This document shows positions 1-41,941 of a stretch of 41,941 nucleotides of DNA, piece after piece; the first letter of the stretch is position 1; every line of letters begins with the position of its first letter. Under the pieces are notes generated by a model, which saw only the letters and a program-made list of their open reading frames with translations, had not been told where the DNA came from and did no database searches. Position numbers and translations under genes: made by a program. Source of the stretch: a virus; IMG/VR virus record IMGVR_UViG_3300031718_000020, positions 1 to 41,941 of that record. One strand, 5' to 3'.

Positions 1-228
1 GCGGCCGGAATCGGCTCCCAAGCGTTCGTGGCCGGGTTCAAGTGGTAATGTCCGTCATCGGACTTGCGCCACCCGGAGGAATCGGCCGGCGGGGGCGGAG
101 GCGGCGCGGCCGGCAGGGGAGGGGGCGGCGGGGGAGCGGCCGGAATCGGCTCCCAAGCGTTCGTGGCCGGGTTCAAGTGGTAATGTCCGTCATCGGACTT
201 GCGCCACCCGGAGGAATCGGCCGGCGGG
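1..228. repeat. 135-bp tandem direct repeat encoding the WW-like module and Pro-rich linker
   Basis: Bases 1-93 recur identically at 136-228, a period of 135 bp or 45 codons, so the frame is kept. Part of the unit also recurs at the right window end (about 41858-41941). The repeat lies inside the nuclease C-terminus. The assembly may have broken here because of it, so the true number of modules is uncertain. Confidence 0.85.
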
Positions 229-1067
229 TTGACGTCGGAGCCCGCGCCCCCCATCTTTTCCGCAAGCTTCCTCTTGAGCGCTTCCCGCTGTTCGTCGGAG
301 ATCGATCCCATGATTGAGGCCATCCGTTCTTGCGGAGTCAAGTTGCAATGTGCTTGATAGGCGCATCCGCCGAACGCCTCGCAAGCTCCGGCGTTATACG
401 GGAGATCCTTCGCCCGCAAACCCGAAAGTCTGATTAGGTGCATCGTTTCGGCTAGGTCTCTAATCCTAGCCAACGTGGGAGTAATCGTGTCCCGCGTTAC
501 CGTTAGGCGCACCGTTGGGCCGGCCTTGTAAGGCGGCTTGGACTTAACGTAATTCCAAACGAGGTTACAGGAATTCGCGCCCGTGGAGGCCATCGTATGA
601 GCCGCGTAAAGACCGGCTTGGAGATTCTCTAGGAGCGTCTCCGGCGAATGGGCCCAACGCTTGGGATCACCCGTGGTCTTATGATCCCATACCTCCGGGA
701 TTCCTAGGTCCGTTTCGGCGTTCGGGCCGTCCACAAGCTCAATATCCTTGTATCCGAAAAAGGTAAGGCCCCAAGCTTTTAGGATAAAAGACTTTTCAAC
801 CCTCATGCCGGGCGTTCCCGGCTTGGGAAGCAAGTGGAGACACGCTAGGGCGCATTCCCCGGCCTCCGTGGTTAGGTCAAATGGCGTCCCGTGGATTAGC
901 CATCGCTCAATTTGCGCGTGGACACTGGAACCGAAAGCCGCGCTAGGAGAGGAAGGGACCTTCACACCGTCAAGTTTTCTCCACGCCCATTTGCGAGGAC
1001 AGAGATCGAACGCCTCTAGCGCGGAGGCGGAGATCGATCCCTCGGGTGCGGAGTCGTCCCTAGGCAT
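1..1067 (-). CDS. Cas4/RecB-like PD-(D/E)XK exonuclease, N-terminal part (gene continues at 41683..41941)
   Basis: I translated this by hand from ATG at 1067-1065. It fits a RecB/Cas4-type nuclease: GYKDIEL (motif II-like), VWDHKTT (the D-x-K catalytic motif) and QAGLY (QxxxY motif). One Cys near the N-terminus (FDLCPRKW) plus three spaced as GACEAFGGCAYQAHC could hold an Fe-S cluster, as in Cas4 and AddB. Such enzymes resect DNA ends during phage recombination. The C-terminus has two copies of a WW-like module (GWRKSDDGHYHLNPATNAW) separated by polyproline, then crosses the window ends in frame. The start overlaps the upstream gene by 8 bases, and the helicase gene follows. Total length is 428 aa if the window ends overlap, 441 aa if not. 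Confidence 0.82.
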   Translation of the reverse strand, partial: MPRDDSAPEGSISASALEAFDLCPRKWAWRKLDGVKVPSSPSAAFGSSVHAQIERWLIHGTPFDLTTEAGECALACLHLLPKPGTPGMRVEKSFILKAWGLTFFGYKDIELVDGPNAETDLGIPEVWDHKTTGDPKRWAHSPETLLENLQAGLYAAHTMASTGANSCNLVWNYVKSKPPYKAGPTVRLTVTRDTITPTLARIRDLAETMHLIRLSGLRAKDLPYNAGACEAFGGCAYQAHCNLTPQERMASIMGSISDEQREALKRKLAEKMGGAGSDVNPPADSSGWRKSDDGHYHLNPATNAWEPIPAAPPPPPPLPAAPPPPPPADSSGWRKSDDGHYHLNPATNAWEPIPA

Positions 1068-3855: not shown

Positions 3856-3857
3856 CG

Positions 3858-3929
3858 TGGCCCGTGCCGGAATCGAACCGGCAACCTCCGCCGTATTAGG
3901 GCGGCGCTTCTCCAAGTAGCTAACGGGCC
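3858..3929 (-). tRNA. tRNA-Ile (anticodon AAT, unusual)
   Basis: The full cloverleaf is visible: 7-bp acceptor GGCCCGT/ACGGGCC, a D arm with a 3-bp stem, anticodon stem CCGCC/GGCGG with loop CTAATAC (anticodon AAT), and T stem GCCGG/CCGGC with loop TTCGATT. The discriminator is A and CCA is not encoded. Bacterial isoleucine tRNAs normally carry GAT, so A34 is odd and would need modification to inosine or 4-way wobble. Confidence 0.85.
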
Positions 3930-4019
3930 GTGACCACGACTCCCAAACAGAGCCGGGCCGGATGCCCGGTGTTTGCCCCTCTTATACAAGGATATCGGGG
4001 AAAAACGCCGGACTCTTAG

Positions 4020-4090
4020 TAGAGCGTCAAGGAATCGAACCTTGATTAGGGGATTCAAAGTCCCCCGTCCTGCCCTTGGACGAACGCTCC
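4020..4090 (-). tRNA. tRNA-Gln (anticodon TTG)
   Basis: The acceptor is GGAGCGT/ACGCTCT with a G1-U72 wobble; tRNA-Gln commonly has a weak 1-72 pair. The D stem is GTCC/GGAC, the anticodon stem GGGGA/TCCCC with loop CTTTGAA, and the T arm CAAGG-TTCGATT-CCTTG. The discriminator is A and CCA is not encoded. It reads CAA, and CAG by wobble. Confidence 0.9.
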
Positions 4091-4302
4091 ACGTCCCCGG
4101 CGGATGAGGCTCCGGGTCCGTTCGTTTCGGGAGCTAGCGGTTTTCGGTCATGACCTCCCTTCTGAATTGGGCCCCGATCGCCCATTAGGACTCACTACTA
4201 ATCCCGATTCGCTCGGGGCAACACTTCACGGGATACCGGCTTTCCGTACGCCCACAACCGGCGAGCGTCCTTTTCTAGAGCAACCATTTATGCTCTTACG
4301 GG

Positions 4303-4384
4303 TGGGCGCGAAGGGGATTGAACCCTCATGCCTTGCGGCGCCGGAACCTAAATCCGGTGCGTATGCCGATTCCGCCACGCGCCC
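4303..4384 (-). tRNA. tRNA-Leu (anticodon TAG)
   Basis: A class II tRNA with a long variable arm. The acceptor is GGGCGCG/CGCGCCC, the anticodon stem CCGGA/TCCGG with loop TTTAGGT (anticodon TAG, reading CUA/CUN), the variable stem-loop CGCCGCAAGGCA, and the T loop TTCAATC. CCA is not encoded. Confidence 0.92.
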
Positions 4385-4411
4385 TGGTGGGCCCGCCCTG
4401 CTTCGGGCCCA
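4385..4411 (-). other. CCA-ended minihelix or terminator-like hairpin upstream of tRNA-Leu
   Basis: On the minus strand TGGGCCC pairs with GGGCCCA around a short loop and is followed directly by CCA, then tRNA-Leu. It looks like an isolated acceptor stem. It is too short for a tRNA, so it is either a GC hairpin or a tRNA remnant. Two more hairpins (GCCGG/CCGGC near 4413-4427 and GTCTC-GCAA-GAGAC near 4445-4458) follow; 4412-4566 holds no gene that I can see. Confidence 0.35.
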
Positions 4412-4566
4412 TGCCGGTTCAACCGGCTAACCTAGTGTGCGCAGTCTCTTGCGAGACATAAGCACCTCCGATCCCCTTTCTCCGCGGCCCGGGTAAAAGT
4501 ATTTTCGCGGTCCCCGGGCCGGCCACACCGGGAGCGCCCGCTAGCCATTACGGCGCCCGCACCGGG

Positions 4567-4683
4567 CTAGCGCCTCCGCGCCGGCCCCTGCTCCACGTCC
4601 GGTGACAGGAAAACCGCGGGCGATCGGAAGAACGCCAACCATCGGGCAATGATCGCAAAATACGGGTCCCTGAGCGCACGCAT
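4567..4683 (-). CDS. Small hydrophobic protein (38 aa)
   Basis: The ATG at 4683-4681 has a good SD (GGAGG, 7 bases upstream). The 38-aa product has an amphipathic or hydrophobic middle (FAIIARWLAFFRSPAVFL) and a basic end. It follows another small membrane protein in the early operon, so a membrane-acting peptide is possible, for example a holin-like or host-takeover peptide. No family was recognised. Confidence 0.55.
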   Translation of the reverse strand: MRALRDPYFAIIARWLAFFRSPAVFLSPDVEQGPARRR

Positions 4684-11417: not shown

Positions 11418-11720
11418 ATGGCCCGTCAATTCTGGCAAGAGGAAGTGGCCGGGGGATCGATGCCCCTGGATCTCACGGTCGATCCGGTCAACGCCGGGAA
11501 CGCCCAATATCCCGCCGATTGGGTGATGCGTCCGCGGCAAGCTCCGCCTCCGCGGCGGCGGCAAGCGCGACGTCCGCCGGGACCTCCGCCACGAATGCGG
11601 CCACGTCCGCCACGTCCGCCGCTACCAGCGCGACGGCGGCGGCAACCTCCGCCACGAATGCGGCCACGTCCGCAACTGCGGCGGCGGCGAGCGCTACCTC
11701 GGCAACGGGCTATGCCCTGA
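11418..11720 (+). CDS. Fibre-like protein, N-terminal frame (probably continues by -1 shift)
   Basis: The start has a strong SD (GGAGGT, 6 bases). The first 35 residues (MARQFWQEEVAGGSMPLDLT and VNAGNAQYPADWV) look like a phage attachment N-terminus. After about 11520 this frame becomes an Arg/Pro-rich stretch that is the shadow of the Ala/Ser/Thr frame at 11519..12010. One extra base in TTGGGTG (about 11519-11525), or a -1 ribosomal shift, would join the parts into one about 197-aa protein. So the real product is probably the joined one. Confidence 0.5.
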   Translation: MARQFWQEEVAGGSMPLDLTVDPVNAGNAQYPADWVMRPRQAPPPRRRQARRPPGPPPRMRPRPPRPPLPARRRRQPPPRMRPRPQLRRRRALPRQRAMP

Positions 11721-12010
11721 GCCTTTCGGCCGTGATCACGGCCGACCCGGCGCCCGCGGTCATCGGGACGGAGTATCCGTGCGACTCCCACGCGGGAGCG
11801 TTTTCCGTTACGTTGCCGGCCATCGGCGCCGGGAATCACGGCAAGCGGATCGGTTTCACGGTGACCACTACCTCCGCCAACGCCGTCACTCCGGTCCCGG
11901 CCGGCTCCGATACGCTCGGGGGAGGCGTGACCACGGTCTCCGGCGCTTACGGCCGCCTGATCCTCATGGCGGACAATTCCGTATCCCCCAAGGTGTGGCG
12001 GCCCGTCTAG
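11519..12010 (+). CDS. Ala/Ser/Thr-rich fibre body (C-terminal frame)
   Basis: It starts with about 55 residues of A/S/T repeats (SATSAGTSATNAATSAT and similar), typical of coiled or collagen-like shafts of phage head or tail fibres. A globular end follows, with Gly-rich beta motifs (TLPAIGAGNHGKRIGFTV and GAYGRLILMAD), a pattern common in fibre C-terminal domains. The frame has no convincing start or SD of its own, so it is most likely fused to 11418 through a -1 shift. The ORF coordinate begins at a TTG. Confidence 0.6.
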   Translation: MGDASAASSASAAAASATSAGTSATNAATSATSAATSATAAATSATNAATSATAAAASATSATGYALSLSAVITADPAPAVIGTEYPCDSHAGAFSVTLPAIGAGNHGKRIGFTVTTTSANAVTPVPAGSDTLGGGVTTVSGAYGRLILMADNSVSPKVWRPV

Positions 12011-28219: not shown

Positions 28220-28597
28220 CTAGAGCGCCCGGACCCGCTCTTGTAGCGCGGCCACGATCTCCGGCCGTTTCTCCGCGTCGATCCACGCGGTCAAAACGGA
28301 CACGTCGTCCTCCACGGCGATCAATTTCCTCGCCTTGGAAAGATCGAGCTTGGAGATATCGATCGGCGTGGAGGGAGGGAGAACCGGCTTTCCCTCCACG
28401 AGGATCCCGCCGCGGAAAACGGCGGACTTCCGGACGGCCGCCACGTGCTCCGGAGGGATCTCCACGGATTGGCCGGGCCCGATTCGATGGATCGAAATCT
28501 CCACGAGACGGGGCTTGACGTTGGTCACGATGAAAGGTGCTCCCTCGCCCGGAGGGGGCGGAGGGGGCGGAGGTGCTTTGCTGTTCTCGCCGGGCAT
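28220..28597 (-). CDS. Hypothetical protein with N-terminal polyproline
   Basis: 125 aa from ATG 28597 with a strong SD GGGAGG 7 bases upstream. An N-terminal run of eight Pro (KAPPPPPPPPGEGAPF) is followed by a small beta-domain (RLVEISIHRIGPGQSVEIPP) and a helical C-terminus (AEKRPEIVAALQERVRAL). It lies between major capsid and connector, which suggests a head-completion or capsid-accessory role. No family was recognised. Confidence 0.7.
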   Translation of the reverse strand: MPGENSKAPPPPPPPPGEGAPFIVTNVKPRLVEISIHRIGPGQSVEIPPEHVAAVRKSAVFRGGILVEGKPVLPPSTPIDISKLDLSKARKLIAVEDDVSVLTAWIDAEKRPEIVAALQERVRAL

Positions 28598-30220: not shown

Positions 30221-31612
30221 CTACTTGCCGCCGCGAGGCGTGTCCTTGGAGAGCATGAGAGGCTCTTGCCATGCGTCTTGGTGGCCCTTGCGCATGCGCT
30301 GTTCCGCCGCCTCCGGCGAATCCGCGCGCACCTTGCGCCCGCCGCCCGGCTCCCGGAAAACGGCCTCTCCGTTGCCGTCCTCGCGCGAGGCCACCCGACG
30401 CGCCCCGAAGATCCCGAGCAAGGATCCGGCGCCGTCCCGCCGCCTCCGCGAGTCCGAGCGGCCCGGGGCGGCCGGCGGGACGACTCCCCCGGAAACTTCC
30501 TGCTCCCGTTCGCCTCCCGGGGCCTCCGTGTCCTCGTTCGTCTCGTCCTCGTTGTCCTCGCCCGCTTGGAGCAGGGCCGCGATCCGGCCCATGGCGTACC
30601 CGTGGATCTTGTCGGGCGACATGCCGGCCGGGTTGAAGTCCGGGTCAATCATCTTGACGATCCGGAGCATCATGGCTCCCTCGTCCTCGCCTTCCGCCTG
30701 TTCCTCGTCCGCGTCGTCGAAACGGGAGCCGGTTGCCTTTGCGACGCGCCGACATAGATCCAGCATGTCCACGCGGCGGCGGATGACCTCCGCGAGAACC
30801 TTCGGATCGCTGGCCTTGTCGGCGCGCGCCTTCTCGTCCTTGGCGGTTTGCTCCGCCTTGTCGGCGCGCGCCTTCTCGTCCTTGGCGGTTTGCTCCGCCT
30901 TGTCGGCGCGCGAGGATTGCGAGGCCAACGCCTCCGCGGACTTGGCCAACGCGCGATCGACGGCTTGGGTATGGGTCACGGAACCCGCCTCATATTCGAT
31001 CCCGTCGATTCGATGCATGGTCGGCATTGGCTTATCCTCGGGAGGGCAAACGCTTTTATCGGAGTCTACTTGCACGGCCCCGGTAGAGTCAAGACGCATC
31101 GACACGCTAGGACCTCCGCGCGCCGCACCCGGAGGAAGGATCGCAAGATGGTTGTAACGGATATTGGTTTGTTGGGCGTCGTAAGGTTGTCCCTCCCAAA
31201 CGCCTCCCTCTTGGATTAGGTCGCAATCGTAACCGCAAGAAAGCTCCCGGCGTTCCTTGTTTTCGATCTTTGTGATTGCGGGCGCATGCTGAATAAGCAA
31301 CGGCGCCGCAAGGTGGAATCCGTCGCGCTGGACGTTCTCTCCGACATGGCCAACCGTGAGGGCTTGCCAGTTGTCAGGGTTGACCGGGGAGGTTGGATGT
31401 AGATCCGTGATCGGAGCGTTCCGCAACGAGGCCATGCTTTCGGGAGCAAAAACCTCGTCCGGGTGACGTAGCTCCCGGCGATCGGTGCCGTCCGAATTCC
31501 GGTAAGAAAAAACGCCCGCGCGCGTTGGGTAACTAGGGACGACAAGTCCCCCTTGCGGCGTCCGTTGGATCTCGCGGATTGACCCTACGTCGAAACGTGC
31601 AACCCGGCTCAC
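30221..31612 (-). CDS. DUF2213 head-maturation protease/scaffold
   Basis: 463 aa. The N-terminal domain (IREIQRTPQGGLVVPSYPTR, SMASLRNAPITDLHP, ELSCGYDCDLI) is DUF2213. A coiled-coil scaffold follows, with an exact tandem 14-aa repeat (ADKAEQTAKDEKAR, twice). An acidic disordered region (AEGEDEGAMM, EDETNEDTEAPG) completes it. It probably combines protease and scaffold, with cleavage between. GTG start. Confidence 0.85.
   Translation of the reverse strand: MSRVARFDVGSIREIQRTPQGGLVVPSYPTRAGVFSYRNSDGTDRRELRHPDEVFAPESMASLRNAPITDLHPTSPVNPDNWQALTVGHVGENVQRDGFHLAAPLLIQHAPAITKIENKERRELSCGYDCDLIQEGGVWEGQPYDAQQTNIRYNHLAILPPGAARGGPSVSMRLDSTGAVQVDSDKSVCPPEDKPMPTMHRIDGIEYEAGSVTHTQAVDRALAKSAEALASQSSRADKAEQTAKDEKARADKAEQTAKDEKARADKASDPKVLAEVIRRRVDMLDLCRRVAKATGSRFDDADEEQAEGEDEGAMMLRIVKMIDPDFNPAGMSPDKIHGYAMGRIAALLQAGEDNEDETNEDTEAPGGEREQEVSGGVVPPAAPGRSDSRRRRDGAGSLLGIFGARRVASREDGNGEAVFREPGGGRKVRADSPEAAEQRMRKGHQDAWQEPLMLSKDTPRGGK
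30813..30905 (-). repeat. 42-bp tandem repeat in the scaffold coding region
   Basis: Two identical 42-bp units start at 30813 and 30855 and a third begins at 30897; they encode ADKAEQTAKDEKAR, two heptads of a coiled coil. This is copy-number variable DNA within one gene. Confidence 0.85.
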
Positions 31613-31621
31613 CCTTAGATG

Positions 31622-32500
31622 CTACTCCGTGGCCTCGGTACCGTCAACGGCCGGAGGTCCCTCGTCCTCTAGCTCCGGAAGCACGGGGTAAGCAATGCAC
31701 CGGCATTGATAATCTTGGCCCGGATGACCTCGGCGCCCGTCAAGCGCACAAATCGGAGGATTGTTCCAATCGTGTACGGTACCGTCAAGATCGTAGTGGA
31801 GGCCCTTGGGCCATTTTCCGCCCGGTGTCCCTCGCACCCTTTCATCGCCCGCCGTGGTCCAAATGTATCGAGTAATCCCAACGGCCATTTGCCGCGTTTG
31901 CGTCAAATCCCCGTTAAGTTTTAGGACTTGATCCCGTGCCAAAAGATCGGCCTTGCTCTTGTTGACGCCGAAACGGTCTTGGAGTTGCTTGCGGATATCC
32001 TCCACGCGGAGGGCGTTTACCTCCGCATTAGCAAGGATCTCCGTAATCTCGTCCAATTGAGTCCCGACTAGGGACTTGATAAGCGCAACGTTTTTATCCC
32101 TGAAAACGTCTAGGGCCGCGCCAACGCCTAGATCCTTGCGCGGGGAGATCCCAACGAGGCGGCGGAATTCGACGTCACCCTTTTTATTGACCCGGGCCGC
32201 GAGGACCCGGATATCCCTGGACAGGGGAGAGCCCGGCGCAAAAGCTTCCTCTAGGATGACCTCCGCTTGCCCTAGACGCTTCCGGACGAACGAGGAACCC
32301 GGAGGCGTCTTAGCGTCCGTGCGCGGTACCTCCCCGGAGAAGTGGATCGGATTCTGCTCCCATCCGGACAAAAAGAGGTCCTCTAGGTGGACGTCGAACG
32401 CATTTAGCCAACGGCGCAAAAGCGTTTGATATGCCGCAACCGTGGCAAGCGGAGGTTTGGGAGAGTGGAGCCTCCGCCGTTGATAGGAAGGAATCCTCAC
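31622..32500 (-). CDS. Mu gpF-like head morphogenesis protein
   Basis: 292 aa from GTG 32500, which overlaps the portal stop (GTGA). ARDQVLKLNGDLTQTRQMAV, then TRYIWTTAGDERVRGTPGGK and HPGQDYQCRCIAYPVLPEL, are the C-terminal gpF/minor head motifs including the R..H..L.G..f....PPG..p.C RC block. A longer upstream reading overlaps the portal in another frame and is a shadow. Confidence 0.88.
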   Translation of the reverse strand: MRIPSYQRRRLHSPKPPLATVAAYQTLLRRWLNAFDVHLEDLFLSGWEQNPIHFSGEVPRTDAKTPPGSSFVRKRLGQAEVILEEAFAPGSPLSRDIRVLAARVNKKGDVEFRRLVGISPRKDLGVGAALDVFRDKNVALIKSLVGTQLDEITEILANAEVNALRVEDIRKQLQDRFGVNKSKADLLARDQVLKLNGDLTQTRQMAVGITRYIWTTAGDERVRGTPGGKWPKGLHYDLDGTVHDWNNPPICALDGRRGHPGQDYQCRCIAYPVLPELEDEGPPAVDGTEATE

Positions 32501-33984
32501 GGAGGGGAACCCTTGGGATTGTCCACGGCGGGACGTCCTCCGGGTTGGTCCGCCGCGGGGGATTGCGTGGGGCCCGTCGGAGGCGTCCCCGGAGGTGCGG
32601 GCGTGAGCCTCGCGGCGGGGAGGGCAGGGGGCGCCTTGGGTCCCGGGACTTGCGGCGCACCTCCCGGAGACTTGGGAGGGAGCATGGTCCCTAGCCGGTC
32701 CTCCGGGTCGATCCGGATCTCCCGGTCCGGTTCCTCGCCGCCACGAACGGCCGCCACTTCCTCCGGAGTGAAAACCTCGTTTTGGAGGTAAACGGCGTCC
32801 GTATCCGCTTGAACCTTCCGGCGATCGATCTTTTCCTTGGGAGTCTCTTGCCAAAGCGGCTTGGCTTCGATCTTGTATCGTTGCCCCGCTTGATATCCGA
32901 GGGAATATCCGATCAAACGATAGATCCGGCGGAGGTGCGGGATAACCGTTTTCTTTTGTTGGGAGTGGATCGAATCATACCACGTCCGGATCGACGCATC
33001 CGCCGCGCCGGCCGCCCCGAGGCCCGCCGGACTCTCCCCCATGAGGATCATAACCGGGATCCTCGTTGCCGCCGCTAGCCTCTTGGCGGCTTGTTGCAAT
33101 TGGTCCGCCACTCCGGCGAATTGCGTAGCTACCTTTTCAAAGCGCTCGCCGCCGTCCGCGTCGAGGAATACGGACCGGGCCACGCTCCGCCCCATGTCCA
33201 GCATTGCGGCCCGCGTTTCCAATTGTTGGCGCATGCCTCCCGCGATCATGCCCATTAGCCCTTTCATGGTAAAGACGCCTTGGGAGGCGTCCGTCATCAT
33301 GAGCCGGGCCGCTTGGTAAACCTCGTTAAAGGCTTGGATGGCCTCATAAGGATTTTGGAGGACGGAGAAATCCCAATTATTGAGCATCCGCCGGGTATAG
33401 TCGTCCGTATGGGCTCCACGGAAAACGACCAAGCGCGTTGCGTGGACATAGGCAATCCCGCCCGTGAGGGATTGGAGCGCGTAAATGTCCGGTTGCCCAA
33501 ATTGGGGGTGCCTAGGATCTTGGTAATACCTCCACGGCCAAGCCCTCCGGCGATCGAAGATATCGAGGAAATCGACGGTCCGGACACGTTCCGGGACAAG
33601 CGGAGTATCCGCGGAGCCTCCGTCATCGGCCCCAATCATCATGACGCCTCCGCCATAAAGGCGGCCCCATCGGATCCCGTCCGCAAATCGGGTATCGAGG
33701 TCCAAGAGGTTTGCGCGCTCCGTCACGGCCTCCGCGCAATCGGGATCCTCCGTGGTCAGGGTGAAACCCTCGCGGAACATTTCATCCGGCACGATCGACA
33801 CCACAAGCCGCGCGATGTCATCGTAATTGAAAAGGTCCGTAAGTAGCATGTCCGGGAGGCGCACCTCTCCCGAAAAGAGATTGTGGGAGGTCTTATCCCT
33901 TCCGGTTCCGAACGCCGTAAAAGGGTTGTACCAAGCGTCAAGATTCGTGAGACGCTGGCCAACCATCTTTAGGAATTCGATCAT
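32497..33984 (-). CDS. Portal protein (DUF1073)
   Basis: 495 aa. ATRIPVMILMGESPAGLGAA, then DASIRTWYDSIHSQQ, is the DUF1073 portal motif; the N-terminal part (DMLLTDLFNYDDIARLVVSI) fits. A Pro-rich C-terminal tail follows (GAPQVPGPKAPPALPAAR). Start near the terminase stop (overlap of 4 bases) is ATGA. Confidence 0.9.
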   Translation of the reverse strand: MIEFLKMVGQRLTNLDAWYNPFTAFGTGRDKTSHNLFSGEVRLPDMLLTDLFNYDDIARLVVSIVPDEMFREGFTLTTEDPDCAEAVTERANLLDLDTRFADGIRWGRLYGGGVMMIGADDGGSADTPLVPERVRTVDFLDIFDRRRAWPWRYYQDPRHPQFGQPDIYALQSLTGGIAYVHATRLVVFRGAHTDDYTRRMLNNWDFSVLQNPYEAIQAFNEVYQAARLMMTDASQGVFTMKGLMGMIAGGMRQQLETRAAMLDMGRSVARSVFLDADGGERFEKVATQFAGVADQLQQAAKRLAAATRIPVMILMGESPAGLGAAGAADASIRTWYDSIHSQQKKTVIPHLRRIYRLIGYSLGYQAGQRYKIEAKPLWQETPKEKIDRRKVQADTDAVYLQNEVFTPEEVAAVRGGEEPDREIRIDPEDRLGTMLPPKSPGGAPQVPGPKAPPALPAARLTPAPPGTPPTGPTQSPAADQPGGRPAVDNPKGSPP

Positions 33985-35642
33985 TTGTCGCCTCGGATCT
34001 TGGCCATGGCCGCGGAGAATGCGTCCCCGTACTGTCGCAATCTTAGCAGGGCTTGCGAGGCTTGATCTACTAGATCGTCGTTGACGTCCTTTGGGAAAGC
34101 CTCATGCTGGGCCATATAATGCCAGATCAAGGGGCAAATGTCCGGGTGAGGCAAAAAGACCTTTTCCTCCGCATAGAGCGGGGAGGTAGCATTAGCGCGC
34201 GCCTCTTTTCCTCCTAGCGCCTTGACGAGGGTAATTCCGGGGATATCATGCTTCAATTCATCCGCGATGGCCGGACCATTCGCGGCGTCCTCAATTAGCT
34301 TATCGTAGGCGGAGGGCCACTTAGCGGCCCATTGGATGACGCGGATCTTTGCGTCAGTGAAAAAAAGCCGCTCGTTGAGGACGTCAACGAGATAGAACCG
34401 GCCTCCGTACGCGCGCCACAATCCGGCCGCCACATAATCGGAATCCGCCGTTTTCTTAAAAGTCATGTCCCATGACTGACAATCCAGGCCCGCCGCCGGG
34501 AGTAGGACGGACTTGCGGCCGGAGACATGGGAAGGATCCCGGAACGCCGGATCAATCTGAGCGCGCTTAAAACACTTTTCGCAAAGACAGGGCTCCGGGT
34601 AATCCTCTTGAGGGTGCCAGAAACGCCACACGGAGCGCTTAAAGATTCCGCCTCCCTCCACGTCCGGCCTTTGCTGGAATTGGGCGGATGCCACGGCCGG
34701 CCCCATTTTGGCCTCGGTACGTTTGACCTCCGCCTCCGGCCAACGGGAGGGGAACAATAGCTCACCCTCGACGGTGCGCCGGTCTCCGCCCCATTTCGTC
34801 CGACACTTGAGATCGGAAATAAAGCGCATGGGGAAACATAGGTGGACGTAATCCCCGGTGCGGAGCATTTCCCCGGCAAGGTCTCCGTTGTGGAGGCGTT
34901 GCATAATGATAAGGTTTCGATGCGTGGCCGGGTCGGCTTGCCGGGTTGACATGGTGTTAGCGTTCCAATCGGACACCATGCGCAACTCCGCCCGTTCGAT
35001 CGTGCCTCCCCCAAGCACATTGACCGGCTTTACGATGTCATCAAAGACGGTGATATTTCCGTGACGGCCGGTGCCTTTCCCTCGCGGCGAGGTTGAGAAC
35101 CGGAAACCTCCGCCGACGATATCGAAGTTTGACGCGCTGGGGTTAGTCTCCGTTAGCAGGTTCCCCCATCGGGACCGAAACCACACGGAGGCCAAAAGAT
35201 TGATAAGCTTCCCTCCGTCCCGCCGGCCGACTAGCGTGGAGTCATAGGACGCGAAGATCCATTTAGTGGCGGCGCGGAGAATCCACTCCCAAGCCGGCCA
35301 AAGGACGTTTACGATTAGACTCTTAGTGCAACCCGGAGGCTCATTGATAACGAGGTTTCGGATCTCGCAATAGGACATCGCCTCCAAGTGGGCGCATACT
35401 TCCTCAATATGCCAACTATCTTGGAACCGGGCCGGCTCAACCTCTTGCCAAGCCATCTTGACGAAATCGTAAAGGGTCCCGCGCCCCGTGGCGATTAGCG
35501 CCCGGTCCGTGCGGATTGAAGCGGCTTGGGTTAGCAAGCTCATGTCGGCAAGCCACGGCGGGCCGTAATGCTCGTTTGATGCCGCGGACAGTTGAACGGC
35601 CCGGCTCACGTTTTGGGCGCCTCCGGAGGCCCATTGGGCCAA
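33981..35642 (-). CDS. terL: Terminase large subunit
   Basis: 553 aa. ATPase: EPPGCTKS (Walker A, residues 101-108) and ITVFDD (Walker B, 197-202). Nuclease: GLDCQSWDMTF, LIEDAANGPAIADEL and DVNDDLVDQASQAL (catalytic acids). It packages DNA with the small subunit at 8490..9029. TTG start at 35642, 10 bases after the upstream stop, preceded by GAGG; a start further downstream at GTG is possible. Confidence 0.9.
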   Translation of the reverse strand: MAQWASGGAQNVSRAVQLSAASNEHYGPPWLADMSLLTQAASIRTDRALIATGRGTLYDFVKMAWQEVEPARFQDSWHIEEVCAHLEAMSYCEIRNLVINEPPGCTKSLIVNVLWPAWEWILRAATKWIFASYDSTLVGRRDGGKLINLLASVWFRSRWGNLLTETNPSASNFDIVGGGFRFSTSPRGKGTGRHGNITVFDDIVKPVNVLGGGTIERAELRMVSDWNANTMSTRQADPATHRNLIIMQRLHNGDLAGEMLRTGDYVHLCFPMRFISDLKCRTKWGGDRRTVEGELLFPSRWPEAEVKRTEAKMGPAVASAQFQQRPDVEGGGIFKRSVWRFWHPQEDYPEPCLCEKCFKRAQIDPAFRDPSHVSGRKSVLLPAAGLDCQSWDMTFKKTADSDYVAAGLWRAYGGRFYLVDVLNERLFFTDAKIRVIQWAAKWPSAYDKLIEDAANGPAIADELKHDIPGITLVKALGGKEARANATSPLYAEEKVFLPHPDICPLIWHYMAQHEAFPKDVNDDLVDQASQALLRLRQYGDAFSAAMAKIRGDK

Positions 35643-36714: not shown

Positions 36715-37178
36715 CGCTTGATCCTCCAAAGCCCTAGGCAAACCGCGTCTTTGACGTCGTGCCGTTTCCCGTTCGGGACTTCCGCTAGGGCGGTTTGCAA
36801 AACTCTTTTCTCTCGGGCGTCCAGTTTAGGGAGGTGCCTATCATGGCAAATATTCTTTGGGAGTTGTCCTTTCCACTCCCGAGGAAAAACCCGAGCACAA
36901 GTAAAGGTCCGGCTCATAAGATGATGATAAGCCGTAAAAACTCCAACGATGGCCCCAACCTTGTATCCGAGGCTAATAAGATCGTTGGGGTCAACTTGCC
37001 GGTTGGATGAGTAGTCTTGGGGCACCTCCACGATCAAATCATCAATCGGGAGGCCGGCCCTAAAAGGTAGCTCCGGATAGTCCTTGACGTGACAAAGGCC
37101 ACACCCAACGAGGCGGGCGCTATCCCATGAGGCCCACCCGGTATCATGTCCGGGATCGATAGATACTAGGCGGCCCAC
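36711..37178 (-). CDS. RuvC-like Holliday junction resolvase
   Basis: 155 aa. MGRLVSIDPGHDTGWASWDS (first D), LIVEVPQDY (second acid) and the end HDVKDAVCLGLW (D and the DA..lG block) show the RuvC/RNase H fold. It would resolve branched DNA before packaging. Start overlaps the polymerase stop by 13 bases. Confidence 0.85.
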   Translation of the reverse strand: MGRLVSIDPGHDTGWASWDSARLVGCGLCHVKDYPELPFRAGLPIDDLIVEVPQDYSSNRQVDPNDLISLGYKVGAIVGVFTAYHHLMSRTFTCARVFPREWKGQLPKNICHDRHLPKLDAREKRVLQTALAEVPNGKRHDVKDAVCLGLWRIKR

Positions 37179-39154
37179 GGGATTAGCCTCCCGTTCTCAT
37201 ACTTGGGCCCGGCCTCTTTCGAGTATCGCTGCATTAGCGCCGGCTCCACGTCAATCCGGACGTCGGGTAGCCATGGCTTGGCGGCGGCGAGCATGAGCCG
37301 GCGGACCTCGAAAGCGCATTCATGCGCCACGGGCGCGAAACTCTCCCCTACGAATTCGTCATGAACGAAGTTACAAACCCGGCTCCCATAAAGCACGGAG
37401 TCCCGTGACGGGTCGTAACAAGCGCGGAGCACCTCCCAACCGGCCGCCTTTGCGATGTCTGCCCCGAGTCCTTGGGGAAAAGTGTTTGCCGCCTCCGTGA
37501 AACGGACGCCTCCGCGGAACCTATTGGAAAACAGTTGCTTGATTTGAGGGAAAGGCTTGTCCGTGTGACTGGAAATCCACGTGAAGTATTCACGCATTTC
37601 CGGCCACGTTTCAAACCAAACCCTTTTAAGGGCGCGCGCCTCGTCCTCGGTAAGGTGGACGTCATAGTTATTGAGGGCAAAGAATACCAGGGCCGCCGCT
37701 CCTAGTCCGCCCATAAAGCCGAAGTTGGCCACCTTGCCGGTTTGCCGGGCATTGATGACCGTGCAATAATCACACTTACAAGAATCCCCGAAGCGGGCGC
37801 GACAGTCGGGACGAGCACCGGCTTTCTTGACGGCCTTTAGCTCCCGATAGTCACGGCGGAGGATTTGAGCCGCGATCATGAGGTGCGGATCAAACTCGTT
37901 ATTGAGCGCCTCCGCGAGGCGGGACTTTTCAAGGACCGTCAAGCACGTTTGCGCCAATGCGCAAAGCTCCAAGCCGCCAAAATCGCAACTCCACATAAGA
38001 GTTAGCGGCGCCCCGCACCGGCACGCTAGATCGTTGTCATTGGCAACCCTGGAACAGCGGAGGCACCGAGGGACGAAACACTCCCGGATCCCGCCCGTGC
38101 GTTTGGTATTCTGGACGTTGGGATCGCTAGAGCCCGTGCGCCCGGTCTCTTTCATGTCCTCAAAGGTAGAATGGATCGGCGTAATGATCCCTCCACGGAG
38201 CAAGGGGACGTCCGTGGACAAAACCTTTTTAAGGGACGAAAGCGCCGCGTATTCAATGAGGACAGGATCGCCGGATTCCTCGCACGTTACCTTATCGGTA
38301 CAAGGCACCCGGATCCCGCGCTTGCCTCCGTCCGTAAGGGGGACCTCGCGTCCCTGACGCGCATACGCGGCGGCAACCCTGGCATGGGCCGCCTTGAGGT
38401 TTCGGGAGCCATCCTTAACCGTCCCGTCGCGCTTGGCATGGTCGGGCCTGAGCAATCCGACGGCGCGGAGGTCCGCCGCGATCCGGTCATATTCTCGCTT
38501 GGTCCTCGTTGCGAGCGCATTGATTCCGGCCTCGTCCGTGCGGAGGCCCCAAGCGGCCATAAGTTTTAGCCAAAAGGACGCCCGCGCTTGGCGGTATTGG
38601 TCCTCAAGATAATACGCGGATTTTTCCTGCGCGGCCCACACGTCCACGGCCGCCCGGACGTCCTCTTGAACGTAGCGTTTTGCCCCCTCCGGCCATTGCG
38701 GCAACGGCACCGGGATTAGCTCCCCATATCGGAACCTCCACGTATTCTTATCCAAGATCCGCCGGAGGTGCCGGAAGGCTAGATCCTCTAGGGCATAATT
38801 TAGCTTGGTTGCCTTGCCGTCGATATCCTCAAAGCCCCGATACGTGCCTTGCGCGATGTCCAAGAGTTTTTGGCGGCAAAGAACGCAAGAAACCCGGTCG
38901 GCTTCGTAAGCATCAAAAACAAGTGGGAAAAGCTCCGGTGCCTCGTTGCAGAGTACCGAAAAGTCAAAGGCGATATAATGCCCGATAAAGAGGACGTCGG
39001 AATCCTCTAGGAGGGAGGCCACGTTTTCTACCCAATCGGTATGGTGGAAAACGGTTTGCCATTCGGCGGACCCGATTGCGACGCACGCCAAAGGCGGAGC
39101 CTGTAGCCCCGGCCGGATAAGCGCGGTTTCGCAATCGAGTCCAACCGGAAGCAT
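37166..39154 (-). CDS. Family-A DNA polymerase with 3'-5' exonuclease and two Cys-rich insertions
   Basis: 662 aa. Exonuclease: LDCET (residues 6-10), HYIAFDFSVL (59-68) and YVQEDVRAAVDVW (161-173). Polymerase: motif A DFGGLELC (391-398), motif B RQTGKVANFGFMGG (470-483) and motif C VHDE (597-600). The usual motif A Arg is Cys398, and the O-helix Tyr position is Gly482. C359/364/367/378/380 and C451/459/461/464 form two possible zinc sites within palm/fingers. It replicates the phage genome. Confidence 0.92.
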   Translation of the reverse strand: MLPVGLDCETALIRPGLQAPPLACVAIGSAEWQTVFHHTDWVENVASLLEDSDVLFIGHYIAFDFSVLCNEAPELFPLVFDAYEADRVSCVLCRQKLLDIAQGTYRGFEDIDGKATKLNYALEDLAFRHLRRILDKNTWRFRYGELIPVPLPQWPEGAKRYVQEDVRAAVDVWAAQEKSAYYLEDQYRQARASFWLKLMAAWGLRTDEAGINALATRTKREYDRIAADLRAVGLLRPDHAKRDGTVKDGSRNLKAAHARVAAAYARQGREVPLTDGGKRGIRVPCTDKVTCEESGDPVLIEYAALSSLKKVLSTDVPLLRGGIITPIHSTFEDMKETGRTGSSDPNVQNTKRTGGIRECFVPRCLRCSRVANDNDLACRCGAPLTLMWSCDFGGLELCALAQTCLTVLEKSRLAEALNNEFDPHLMIAAQILRRDYRELKAVKKAGARPDCRARFGDSCKCDYCTVINARQTGKVANFGFMGGLGAAALVFFALNNYDVHLTEDEARALKRVWFETWPEMREYFTWISSHTDKPFPQIKQLFSNRFRGGVRFTEAANTFPQGLGADIAKAAGWEVLRACYDPSRDSVLYGSRVCNFVHDEFVGESFAPVAHECAFEVRRLMLAAAKPWLPDVRIDVEPALMQRYSKEAGPKYENGRLIPWAA

Positions 39155-39157
39155 GGG

Positions 39158-39940
39158 TCACCGGCCCGGGATCGGGCACCAAACCTGCGTCCCGGGGACG
39201 CAATACCAACGCCGGTCGTCCGAGATATGCACGCCCGGCACCTCCCACGGGTTGGGGCCTCGGGACGGCGGGGGAGGGGGAGGGGGCGGCATGCGAACGG
39301 AGACGGGCTCCCATGCGTTCGTGGCCGGGTTGAGGACGTGCAAGCCGTCCGCGGTCCGTTGCCACGCGGCGGAGGCCGTGGGCGGGGGAGGTGCGCCGTA
39401 ACCGGCCGGCGGGAGCGCCCGCGTATGGTCGGCCCACTTGGGAGGTTGGAGATCGATTCCGAGCCTCCGCGCTTCCTCGAAATCGAACGGGGACCAATTG
39501 TGACGGGTGAAATCCTCCCCCTTTTCGCGCGTCTTGATCAAGTTGGTCTCCAAATGGATAACAAACCCGGAGAGGACGTTCTCCGGACCCGTAACCCGAG
39601 GCATGAGCCGTTGCAGGAACGGGAAGAAATCGGTTTTCCGGGAGCTATTGTTCTCCAACCCGAAAAGGGCCAAGAGGAACCCGGCCACGGCCCCTTGCCC
39701 GATTTTCTTGTTTTTCATGCTCTGAAACCACGTCCGCCGGGAGCCCGCGGGATCTTCCGGTTGCGTCGAGGTCAAGACCTCCGTCTCCACGATGAACGCG
39801 AGGCCCGATCGTTGCGTGTCCTTTTCAACACACCGGACGATCTCCACGTCGTAAATCCCTTCCTTGTTGGAGAAATAGATCCCGGTCTCAAAAACCTCCG
39901 CGTCGTTGAGGCCGTCCCAAAGTCCCGCCGTGCTAGTCAT
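39158..39940 (-). CDS. SSB-like (DUF669-type) protein with WW-like Pro-rich tail
   Basis: 260 aa from ATG 39940 (ATGA with helicase; SD AGGTGG). The N-terminal half (WDGLNDAEVFETGIYFSNKE, GIYDVEIVRCVEKDTQRSGL) resembles phage DUF669 single-strand-binding proteins. The C-terminus carries WQRTADGLHVLNPATNAWEP, polyproline, then a second half-similar unit (HISDDRRWYCVPGTQVWCP), as in the nuclease at the window ends. Confidence 0.72.
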   Translation of the reverse strand: MTSTAGLWDGLNDAEVFETGIYFSNKEGIYDVEIVRCVEKDTQRSGLAFIVETEVLTSTQPEDPAGSRRTWFQSMKNKKIGQGAVAGFLLALFGLENNSSRKTDFFPFLQRLMPRVTGPENVLSGFVIHLETNLIKTREKGEDFTRHNWSPFDFEEARRLGIDLQPPKWADHTRALPPAGYGAPPPPTASAAWQRTADGLHVLNPATNAWEPVSVRMPPPPPPPPSRGPNPWEVPGVHISDDRRWYCVPGTQVWCPIPGR

Positions 39941-41676
39941 TTGATCCACCTATGTCCCGGCCGGGTTCTAACGTCGTCCGGCTCCGGGATTAGCCGATCG
40001 GCGTACAATAGTTTTTGCGCTTGCCCCGTGGACGCCTCGATATACGCGGCATCCTTTAGGGCTTGTTGGAAAGCGTCGATATGCGCGATCGACGTACATA
40101 CCACGTCAAAAATAACCTCGTCCGCCTCTTGGTTGTCGCGATGGGTTCTCCCTAGCATTTGCTCCCATCGGAGGCCGTTAGGAGGACATGACGTCACAAG
40201 ATTACGCCACCATTTTTGGAGGTTTCGGCCCTCCGCATTCGACGCCACGGAGGCGATTAGGGACTCGTCCGCCGGGTGATCTTCGATGCTCCGGCCTCGG
40301 GAGTCTTGACCACGCTTGCCATAGTATACAAGCCTAGCATGCTTGGCAAGCGCCTCCGCGACGGCTTGGTGCTCCGTCCACACGATGCCCGGGGCAATCT
40401 TGGCCCATAGCGCCGCCGCTCGGATTACCGAGTCATCCAACCAAACCGGGACCGAATTAGGCTCGAAAGAATCCCTAACCCGGCGCCATTCGGCTAGAGC
40501 GGGCTCAGCCAAAGGATAGAACCCATCGGAGACCGCGTTAGTAACCTGCAATTCCGAGTCAAGATTGCGTCGGTTATTCGTGAGGATCTCCCGGCACCAT
40601 TTCGCCCATTCCCGGCGAGCGGCCATCCAAGGATCCGGAGGCCGTGGCCTCCACTCATAATAAAACCCTTGGCTAAGCTCCCGGGCGACGCGCCAAACGC
40701 TCATGGGATCCATAAGGGGCCACCCATCGGGCGCGCACCATTCCTTACGGAGCTTTGCGAAAGCCTCGTCAATGACCGGAGAAAGCTTGATCTCACGGTC
40801 TCCCCATAGGGCCTCAATGGTCAGGGACGACCCTTCAAAGCCCTCCGTGGTAGCCACTACGGAGGGCGTCTCAACGAGGCGGCGGCGATAGGCTTGTCGG
40901 GCGGCCGTCAATTCGTCCGCCGCTTCCCGTTCCTCGCGGCTCATGAATAGCGTTAGTGCCCCGAGGCCGATCCGCTTGTCCGTCGTGGTTTTCTCGTCAA
41001 GCGCATCCGCCCAATCTTCTAGCTCCGTGAACGAAAGAGGGACAGGGGCCTCCAAAGGTCCCAATGCGCGCGCCACCAAATGGGCATAATTCTTGATCGA
41101 TCGCTTGACGATCGTTCCTGACATCGCAACGAGTTTGCACGTTGGATGAGTGGCCAAATACCGCAAAAGGCGCTTAGTACAGGCGGCCTTTTTATTGCCG
41201 GCCTTGTGCGCCTCGTCCAAAATGATCACGTCCGGTTGGTATTGATCCAAAAGGGCTTGGGCCTGGACACGCCCCAAAAGCTCGTAAGACACAAGCCGGA
41301 TAAAGTTAGGGATTGGCCAATGCTGGGCCAAAATGCGAAACTCCCTCTTGGTCTTTTCGATTAGTTTGGCAGGAAGAAAGAGCACCGGCCGCCGCGAGTC
41401 CAAGACAAACGGGACGAGGCCGGACAAAAGCGTTTTACCTCCGCCAACGCGGATCGGGCAAAAGCCTCCGCCGTTGACCCCAATCTCCAAGAGGGCTTGG
41501 GCCTGGATAGGGCGTAGTACCATCGTGCCTCCGGGTTTCCGGAGCACGGAGGTAAATTCTTGCGCTACTTCGGAGGCGGATTCCTGCGTCCACACCCGGC
41601 GCGGCAACGAAACGATCCGCGCTACCTCCCGGGTATGTTGAACGGCGCGAATGACGCCGGGCGTGGACGAGGGCAC
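39937..41676 (-). CDS. SF2 DNA helicase (SNF2/DEAH type)
   Basis: 579 aa. Walker A RVGGGKTLLSG (77-86; Lys81), DEAH at 154-157 (LDEAHKAG), SGT at 186-188, and the C-terminal RWEQMLGRTHRDNQ (motif VI). It would unwind DNA for replication or recombination. GTG start at 41676, six bases after the nuclease stop. It is flanked by the two proteins that share the WW-like module. Confidence 0.9.
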   Translation of the reverse strand: MPSSTPGVIRAVQHTREVARIVSLPRRVWTQESASEVAQEFTSVLRKPGGTMVLRPIQAQALLEIGVNGGGFCPIRVGGGKTLLSGLVPFVLDSRRPVLFLPAKLIEKTKREFRILAQHWPIPNFIRLVSYELLGRVQAQALLDQYQPDVIILDEAHKAGNKKAACTKRLLRYLATHPTCKLVAMSGTIVKRSIKNYAHLVARALGPLEAPVPLSFTELEDWADALDEKTTTDKRIGLGALTLFMSREEREAADELTAARQAYRRRLVETPSVVATTEGFEGSSLTIEALWGDREIKLSPVIDEAFAKLRKEWCAPDGWPLMDPMSVWRVARELSQGFYYEWRPRPPDPWMAARREWAKWCREILTNNRRNLDSELQVTNAVSDGFYPLAEPALAEWRRVRDSFEPNSVPVWLDDSVIRAAALWAKIAPGIVWTEHQAVAEALAKHARLVYYGKRGQDSRGRSIEDHPADESLIASVASNAEGRNLQKWWRNLVTSCPPNGLRWEQMLGRTHRDNQEADEVIFDVVCTSIAHIDAFQQALKDAAYIEASTGQAQKLLYADRLIPEPDDVRTRPGHRWIK

Positions 41677-41682
41677 GGAAGG

Positions 41683-41941
41683 CTATTCCGTATCGTCGAA
41701 CATGAGGGAGGCCAGCGCGTCCCCGATGAAATCCCACACGGCCCGGAAAACGGCCTCCGTGACCTTGATCTCCGCCTCGCCGGACTTCGGCTTGTTGCGG
41801 GATCCGGCCGGCCGGCCGGGGCCGCGCTTGGGGGCCTCCGCGGGCGGCGGAGGGGGCGGAGGCGGAGGCGGCGCGGCCGGCAGGGGAGGGGGCGGCGGGG
41901 GAGCGGCCGGAATCGGCTCCCCAGCGTTCGTGGCCGGGTTC
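41683..41941 (-). CDS. C-terminal part of the Cas4/RecB-like nuclease (continues from 1..1067)
   Basis: Reading on the minus strand from the right window end, the frame goes on as NPATNAGEPIPAAPPPPPPL, then polyproline, a basic linker (APKRGPGRPAGSRNKPKSG) and a helical end (AEIKVTEAVFRAVWDFIGDA), stopping at TAG 41685-41683. The single difference to the module at 1-45 (Trp to Gly) may be an end error. Confidence 0.8.
   Translation of the reverse strand, partial: NPATNAGEPIPAAPPPPPPLPAAPPPPPPPPPPAEAPKRGPGRPAGSRNKPKSGEAEIKVTEAVFRAVWDFIGDALASLMFDDTE
41903..41941. repeat. 39-bp terminal overlap with bases 1-39
   Basis: Identical to bases 1-39 except for one position (41922 region, C for A). 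In-frame continuation of the nuclease gene across the join argues for a circular map, as in a headful-packaging or circularly permuted phage. Confidence 0.8.

Follow-up and report, generated by a model that had tools for sequence, protein, structure and literature searches.

A tryptophan module and proline-rich tails shared by the nuclease and the single-stranded DNA-binding protein of a metagenomic phage

Introduction

The tails of single-stranded DNA-binding proteins (SSBs) are known interaction hubs, and their partners normally bind them in a pocket. The locus described here raises the question of what happens when the partner enzyme bears the same kind of tail as the SSB, and when both tails vary together across phages. 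The locus belongs to virus record IMGVR_UViG_3300031718_000020, which was analyzed as a whole (41,941 bases, hereafter the window). From the sequence alone, it had been predicted that a WW-like module next to polyproline is common to a nuclease and an SSB-like protein encoded on either side of a helicase gene, and that the phage may thereby tie all three into one recombination complex. No paper connecting a phage SSB with a nuclease through polyproline or WW elements came up in the literature library searched.

Replication cassette and nuclease tail

The replication cassette is encoded on the minus strand with the gene order nuclease, helicase, SSB, and family A DNA polymerase. The SF2/SNF2-type helicase (39937..41676, minus) matches phrog_62 DNA helicase at 1e-17 and, weakly, SNF2-rel_dom/DEAD profiles; its gene lies between those of the nuclease and the SSB, which are ~2 kb apart. 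The polymerase (37166..39154, minus) matches Pfam DNA_pol_A (8e-16) and phrog_17 (4e-43). Three tRNA genes, Ile(aat), Gln(ttg), and Leu(tag), are located at 3857-4384 on the same strand.

The nuclease ORF spans the contig ends, with its start at 1067, a first stretch down to base 1, and the remainder from 41941 to 41683. The first part (1..1067, minus) comprises the N-terminal domain and the first tail modules; the second (41683..41941, minus) encodes polyproline, an AT-hook-like KRGPGRP, and a terminal helix-like segment. Matches to Pfam PDDEXK_1 (3e-12) and phrog_69 exonuclease (5e-12), together with Foldseek matches of the model to Cas4, RecE, and AdnA and catalytic residues (E, D, D-x-K, Q) that are invariant among 20 relatives, identify the protein as a PD-(D/E)XK nuclease of Cas4/RecE-like type. 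One N-terminal cysteine (C25) and three C-terminal ones (C231, C237, C243) are invariant or nearly so in 20 relatives, which fits the four-Cys pattern of Cas4/AddB-like Fe-S nucleases and points to a putative Fe-S cluster.

The nuclease tail consists of tandem repeats. Window positions 1-93 and 136-228 (minus) are 93-nt repeats of 100% identity encoding ...ADSSGWRKSDDGHYHLNPATNAWEPIPA; the repeat unit measures 135 nt, of which these 93 nt are identical in both copies, and each copy encodes SSGWRKSDDGHYHLNPATNAWEPIPA followed by proline runs. Copy 1 of the Trp module, GWRKSDDGHYHLNPATNAWEP, is found at 147..209 and copy 2, with the same sequence, at 12..74, separated by a polyproline spacer (84..146; all minus). 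Across the contig end there is a partial module, NPATNAGEP, in which the Trp is replaced by Gly (41914..41940), then a polyproline spacer after the last module (41836..41913) and the AT-hook-like KRGPGRP (41809..41829; all minus), which recurs in most related nucleases. The first 39 bases of the window (1-39) and its last 39 (41903-41941) are in frame with each other and match at all but one position (38 of 39); the break between the contig ends therefore falls within the tandem repeat, and at least two copies exist. The partial module at 41914-41940 and positions 12-38 probably belong to one and the same copy, copy 2. The contig of a second phage (G003:C1:1-1237, L163) likewise starts inside a nuclease tail repeat, here of PAPPPPPVAP units, indicating that short-read assembly underestimates the copy numbers of these repeats.

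Single-stranded DNA-binding protein and other proline-rich proteins

The SSB (39158..39940, minus) is an OB-fold protein of the DUF669 type with a confidently modeled core (AlphaFold2 pLDDT >90). Foldseek matched the model to PrgE (1.9e-4) and to many DUF669 proteins (3.5e-6), and hhalign related it to the DUF669 protein of another metagenomic phage, G002, with a probability of 97.7%. The window SSB has no significant match of its own in Pfam or PHROG, including DUF669, which the G002 protein does match in Pfam (5e-8).

The tail of the SSB carries one Trp module, WQRTADGLHVLNPATNAWEP (39305..39364, minus), recognized in the translation and by profile, and a run of eight prolines (39266..39289, minus). 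Translations, repeat comparison, and profile searches thus bear out that a module and polyproline are common to the two proteins whose genes flank the SF2 helicase gene. A degenerate second copy in the SSB, VHISDDRRWYCVPGTQVWCPIPGR, had also been proposed, but the module profile does not recognize it (E ~100). The corresponding C-terminal segment (residues 231-260, PWEVPGVHISDDRRWYCVPGTQVWCPIPGR; 39161..39250, minus) is a different, small beta element that is confidently folded in the model (pLDDT ~90; strands 238-239, 245-247, and 254-256). The closest resemblance is to SPDRRWWRYPGQQWQQVP, the C-terminal element of the L020 ortholog, and this is weak when taken alone (leave-one-out E 5.2). 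None of the SSB C-termini (...CPIPGR, ...WELDT, ...WELDAK, ...WKPRT) ends in the acidic ...PF tip of the bacterial SSB-Ct.

Among the real proteins of the scanned 12-18 kb cassettes, proline-rich tails were confined to the nuclease and the SSB, all other matches being out-of-frame ORFs. The original prediction had further pointed to a capsid-region ORF at 28220; its Pro8 is present, but the ORF is without the Trp module and does not resemble the tails. A portal-region protein (32500-34101, minus) has a proline-rich C-terminus, again lacking the Trp module. The proline-rich segments of both proteins are unlike the tails (z -1.6 to 1.2 vs 14.5). Other repeats in the window include an exact 42-bp tandem repeat of 2.4 copies (30813-30912) inside ORF 30221-31612, which lies upstream of the capsid genes and encodes a coiled-coil-like protein with AKDEKARADKAEQT repeats, and 21/63-nt repeats (ATSAT...) in an Ala/Ser/Thr-rich ORF (11519-12010, plus) that is probably a fiber-like structural protein.

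Relation of the module to WW domains

The module and the WW domain (PF00397) have in common two Trp residues, short length, adjoining proline runs, and a similar order of turns. However, no module matched PF00397 at E values up to 10, whereas three known WW domains used as controls matched at 1e-10 to 5e-17. An hhalign comparison of module and WW gave a probability of 0.9%, and the WW profile scored the modules no higher than shuffled modules. The two Trp are 15 residues apart in L030, G001, and G002 and 17 in the window, shorter than the 20-22 in aligned WW sequences and the WW criterion of 20-23. By every one of these tests, the module falls outside the WW family.

Structure prediction with AlphaFold2 left the module mostly disordered: the SSB module and nuclease copy 1, two of the three modeled copies, have a pLDDT <50, and copy 2 forms a weak two-stranded hairpin (335-337/343-345, pLDDT ~55-74). 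Could the module still act as a WW-like reader, folding into a miniature three-stranded sheet of WW type with affinity for the polyproline of the partner tail? Its features follow one another (W, turn DG, Y/H.L, turn NP.TN, W-E) as in a shortened WW, which leaves room for a functional resemblance; the weak hairpin of copy 2 pairs WRK with YHL, and module and polyproline are both present in both proteins. Set against the failed profile comparisons, the short Trp spacing, and the low confidence of most copies, we consider such a reader very doubtful. Caution towards a proline-binding model is also advisable because the claims that E. coli SSB binds its partners through proline PxxP motifs are contested (PMC7145534, PMC10164576).

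Two other likenesses were rejected. Kelch_4 matched LNPxTNxW at E values of 0.01-0.0002, covering just one hairpin at the end of a Kelch blade, and a choline-binding protein in the PDB matched at 0.065 over only a piece of one repeat. Lying near or below the cut-off, these are probably convergent, generic beta-hairpins.

Distribution and conservation of the module

Searched against 13,033 ORFs, leave-one-out profiles recovered each of the six module sequences (E 1.6e-7 to 4.8e-15), so their similarity is not due to chance. The module does occur beyond this phage, since profile searches and ORF scans placed it in three other metagenomic phages: on both nuclease and SSB in L030, at the C-terminus of the SSB and on no other protein in G001, and in G002 on the DUF669 SSB, whose gene neighbors that of a Sak4-like AAA_24 protein. 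All six sequences share LNPxTNxWE without exception. The modules of G002 and G001 are identical at 17 of 20 residues, yet use different codons at 11 of these 17; codons have drifted under a conserved amino acid sequence, which argues that the peptide is under selection. When the two proteins of a single genome are compared, 7-9 module residues are different, and 4-6 of the 13 shared residues use other codons; nuclease and SSB modules are therefore not fresh copies of each other.

Relatives of the polymerase comprised 42 loci from an IMG/VR scan, to which a further scan added several. The module was not detected in bacterial genomes (genome_contigs), INPHARED phages, or plasmids (PLSDB), and searches for relatives by helicase or nuclease pattern yielded nothing beyond G001. 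MW202816 has the same cassette without the module. Most of the 80 listed matches of the LNPxTNxWE DNA pattern in viral contigs were unrelated structural proteins. A similar C-terminal hairpin without the first Trp ends unrelated short viral ORFs in L059, L094, and L116 (VSL.G.HYLNP.TNTWER.R or ...LNPxTNTWERxR). Two polymerase relatives (L169, L170) are located on contigs of Labilithrix (Myxococcota) MAGs, a hint at the hosts of the wider group.

Tail matching within genomes

Apart from L031, a separate case, the phages with proline-rich nuclease and SSB tails group together in the polymerase tree as a well-supported clade of eight (100/97). The type of tail differs between genomes. NPATNAWEP characterizes the window and L030; in L011, a different Trp element, SPDG.H.WDG..W.P, is common to nuclease and SSB (1132-2298 and 3970-4680), in L010 both proteins carry GYGQPPP/NYG/PPGW repeats, and still other types exist elsewhere. 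The GYGQPPP/NYGQPP repeats on the nuclease and SSB tails of L010, L020, and L173 resemble the aromatic-rich low-complexity tails of condensate-forming proteins.

Nuclease and SSB tails were compared across 11 genomes with prolines masked. Tails from the same genome had a mean z of 6.1-6.4 compared to 1.4-1.5 in permuted pairs (p ~1e-4). The match was strong in four genomes, moderate in two, and absent in five (G001, L017, L027, L171, L192). It persisted when the window, L030, or L011 was omitted singly (p 1.5e-4 to 2.5e-4) and when the three genomes with this module were omitted together (p 0.002), and became marginal without the four strongest genomes (p 0.02-0.05). The permutation test ignores phylogeny, a bias that should be conservative because relatives sharing a tail raise the off-diagonal values. 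Within-genome matching is thus real but not universal, in contrast to the variation of tail type between related phages. In roughly every second genome examined, the nuclease tail and the SSB tail are closer to each other than to those of related phages, a pattern suggesting that nuclease and SSB are brought together on DNA by their tails.

Possible functions of the tails

In this phage group, the nuclease and the SSB would both end in disordered, proline-rich tails with short aromatic (Trp/Tyr) elements, which in the window take the form of the W...DG...LNPATNAWEP module. Our tentative reading, to which we give somewhat less than an even chance, is that the tails are shared adhesive or docking segments that co-recruit the nuclease and the SSB on ssDNA, the contact probably being from tail to tail. 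Where the SSB coats ssDNA, its many tails would concentrate modules and polyproline locally. The nuclease tail would contribute segments of this kind as well, in a tandem array of two or more, and the AT-hook-like motif would anchor it to dsDNA. Multivalent contacts between tails could then co-recruit the nuclease to SSB-coated ssDNA, placing it where it would resect DNA and pass ssDNA to the SSB, and both proteins would be kept at the resected ends. We infer the tail-to-tail contact and co-recruitment, as well as the contacting residues, the partner, and any Trp-Pro binding. For the single recombination complex originally envisaged, the coupling of nuclease and SSB fits shared tails restricted to these two proteins, while the helicase is implicated by gene order alone. 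Counting against adhesive tails are the five of 11 genomes in which the match is absent and the module copies themselves, most of which AlphaFold2 models with low confidence. Even without selection, tandem GC-rich repeats can also be copied from one gene to its neighbor.

The main rival to tail-to-tail contact is a common docking site: a third protein (helicase, polymerase, or host factor) would recognize, at a single site, a peptide that both tails have in common, and the proline runs would be spacers. The bacterial SSB C-terminal tip acts in this way, and the module or another Trp element is placed at or near the extreme SSB C-terminus, the position of the SSB-Ct, in G001, L030, L011, L020, and L192. 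In phage HK620, the last six residues of the DUF669 SSB bind the Sak4 annealase (PMC5928155), and it is on a DUF669 SSB adjoining a Sak4-like gene that G002 has its module. The variation of tail type among related phages of one polymerase clade is, however, not what a conserved partner site would favor, and the module is not acidic, unlike the tips DDDIPF and NDYPPF. On balance, docking to a third protein appears possible but rather unlikely. The tails might also have no binding function, if low-complexity GC-rich repeats had spread between neighboring genes by slippage and intragenomic recombination and left matched tails as a by-product. The identity of the two nuclease copies at the DNA level, the short distance between the nuclease and SSB genes, and the breakage of both the window and G003 contigs in nuclease tail repeats are in line with such spreading. 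The divergence of the modules within one genome in residues and codons speaks against it, as do the protein-level core kept between genomes despite synonymous change and the other proline-rich genes of the window, which did not receive the module. We regard this explanation as improbable.

If the tails are adhesive, they could constitute a matching code, in which the same self-associating Pro/Trp tail on nuclease and SSB holds both in one assembly and the type turns over between phages while remaining matched within each genome. Such a code, which we consider unlikely, would imply that co-infecting relatives do not mix their recombination machinery.

Comparison with known systems

The cassette resembles the duf2800-gp2.5-polA phage replication module (PMC8093625) in combining a PD-(D/E)XK nuclease, an SSB, and PolA. 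In contrast to that module, the window SSB is close to DUF669/PrgE and is not DUF2815 by Pfam; tails shared by nuclease and SSB do not feature in the paper that describes it (PMC8093625). Like bacterial SSBs, the phage SSB has an OB-fold core, a long disordered linker, and a conserved short C-terminal element. The bacterial tip is the acidic DDDIPF, whereas the phage SSB carries a Trp module and shares its kind of tail with a nuclease. The closer parallel by fold, according to Foldseek and hhalign, is the DUF669 SSB of HK620, the C-terminal residues of which also recruit a recombination protein; its tip, NDYPPF, is unrelated to the module in sequence, and no shared tail has been reported on the HK620 partner (PMC5928155).

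A precedent for matched tails comes from E. coli, where the composition of the SSB linker governs co-assembly: SSB variants co-condense well only with matching disordered linkers, and the W136D exchange in the linker inhibits condensation (PMC12143593). Engineered linkers of E. coli SSB currently serve to study the compatibility of disordered tails. If the phage proteins do assemble like with like, their tails, matched in some combinations and mismatched in others, would be a natural resource for testing whether such compatibility controls entry into ssDNA assemblies.
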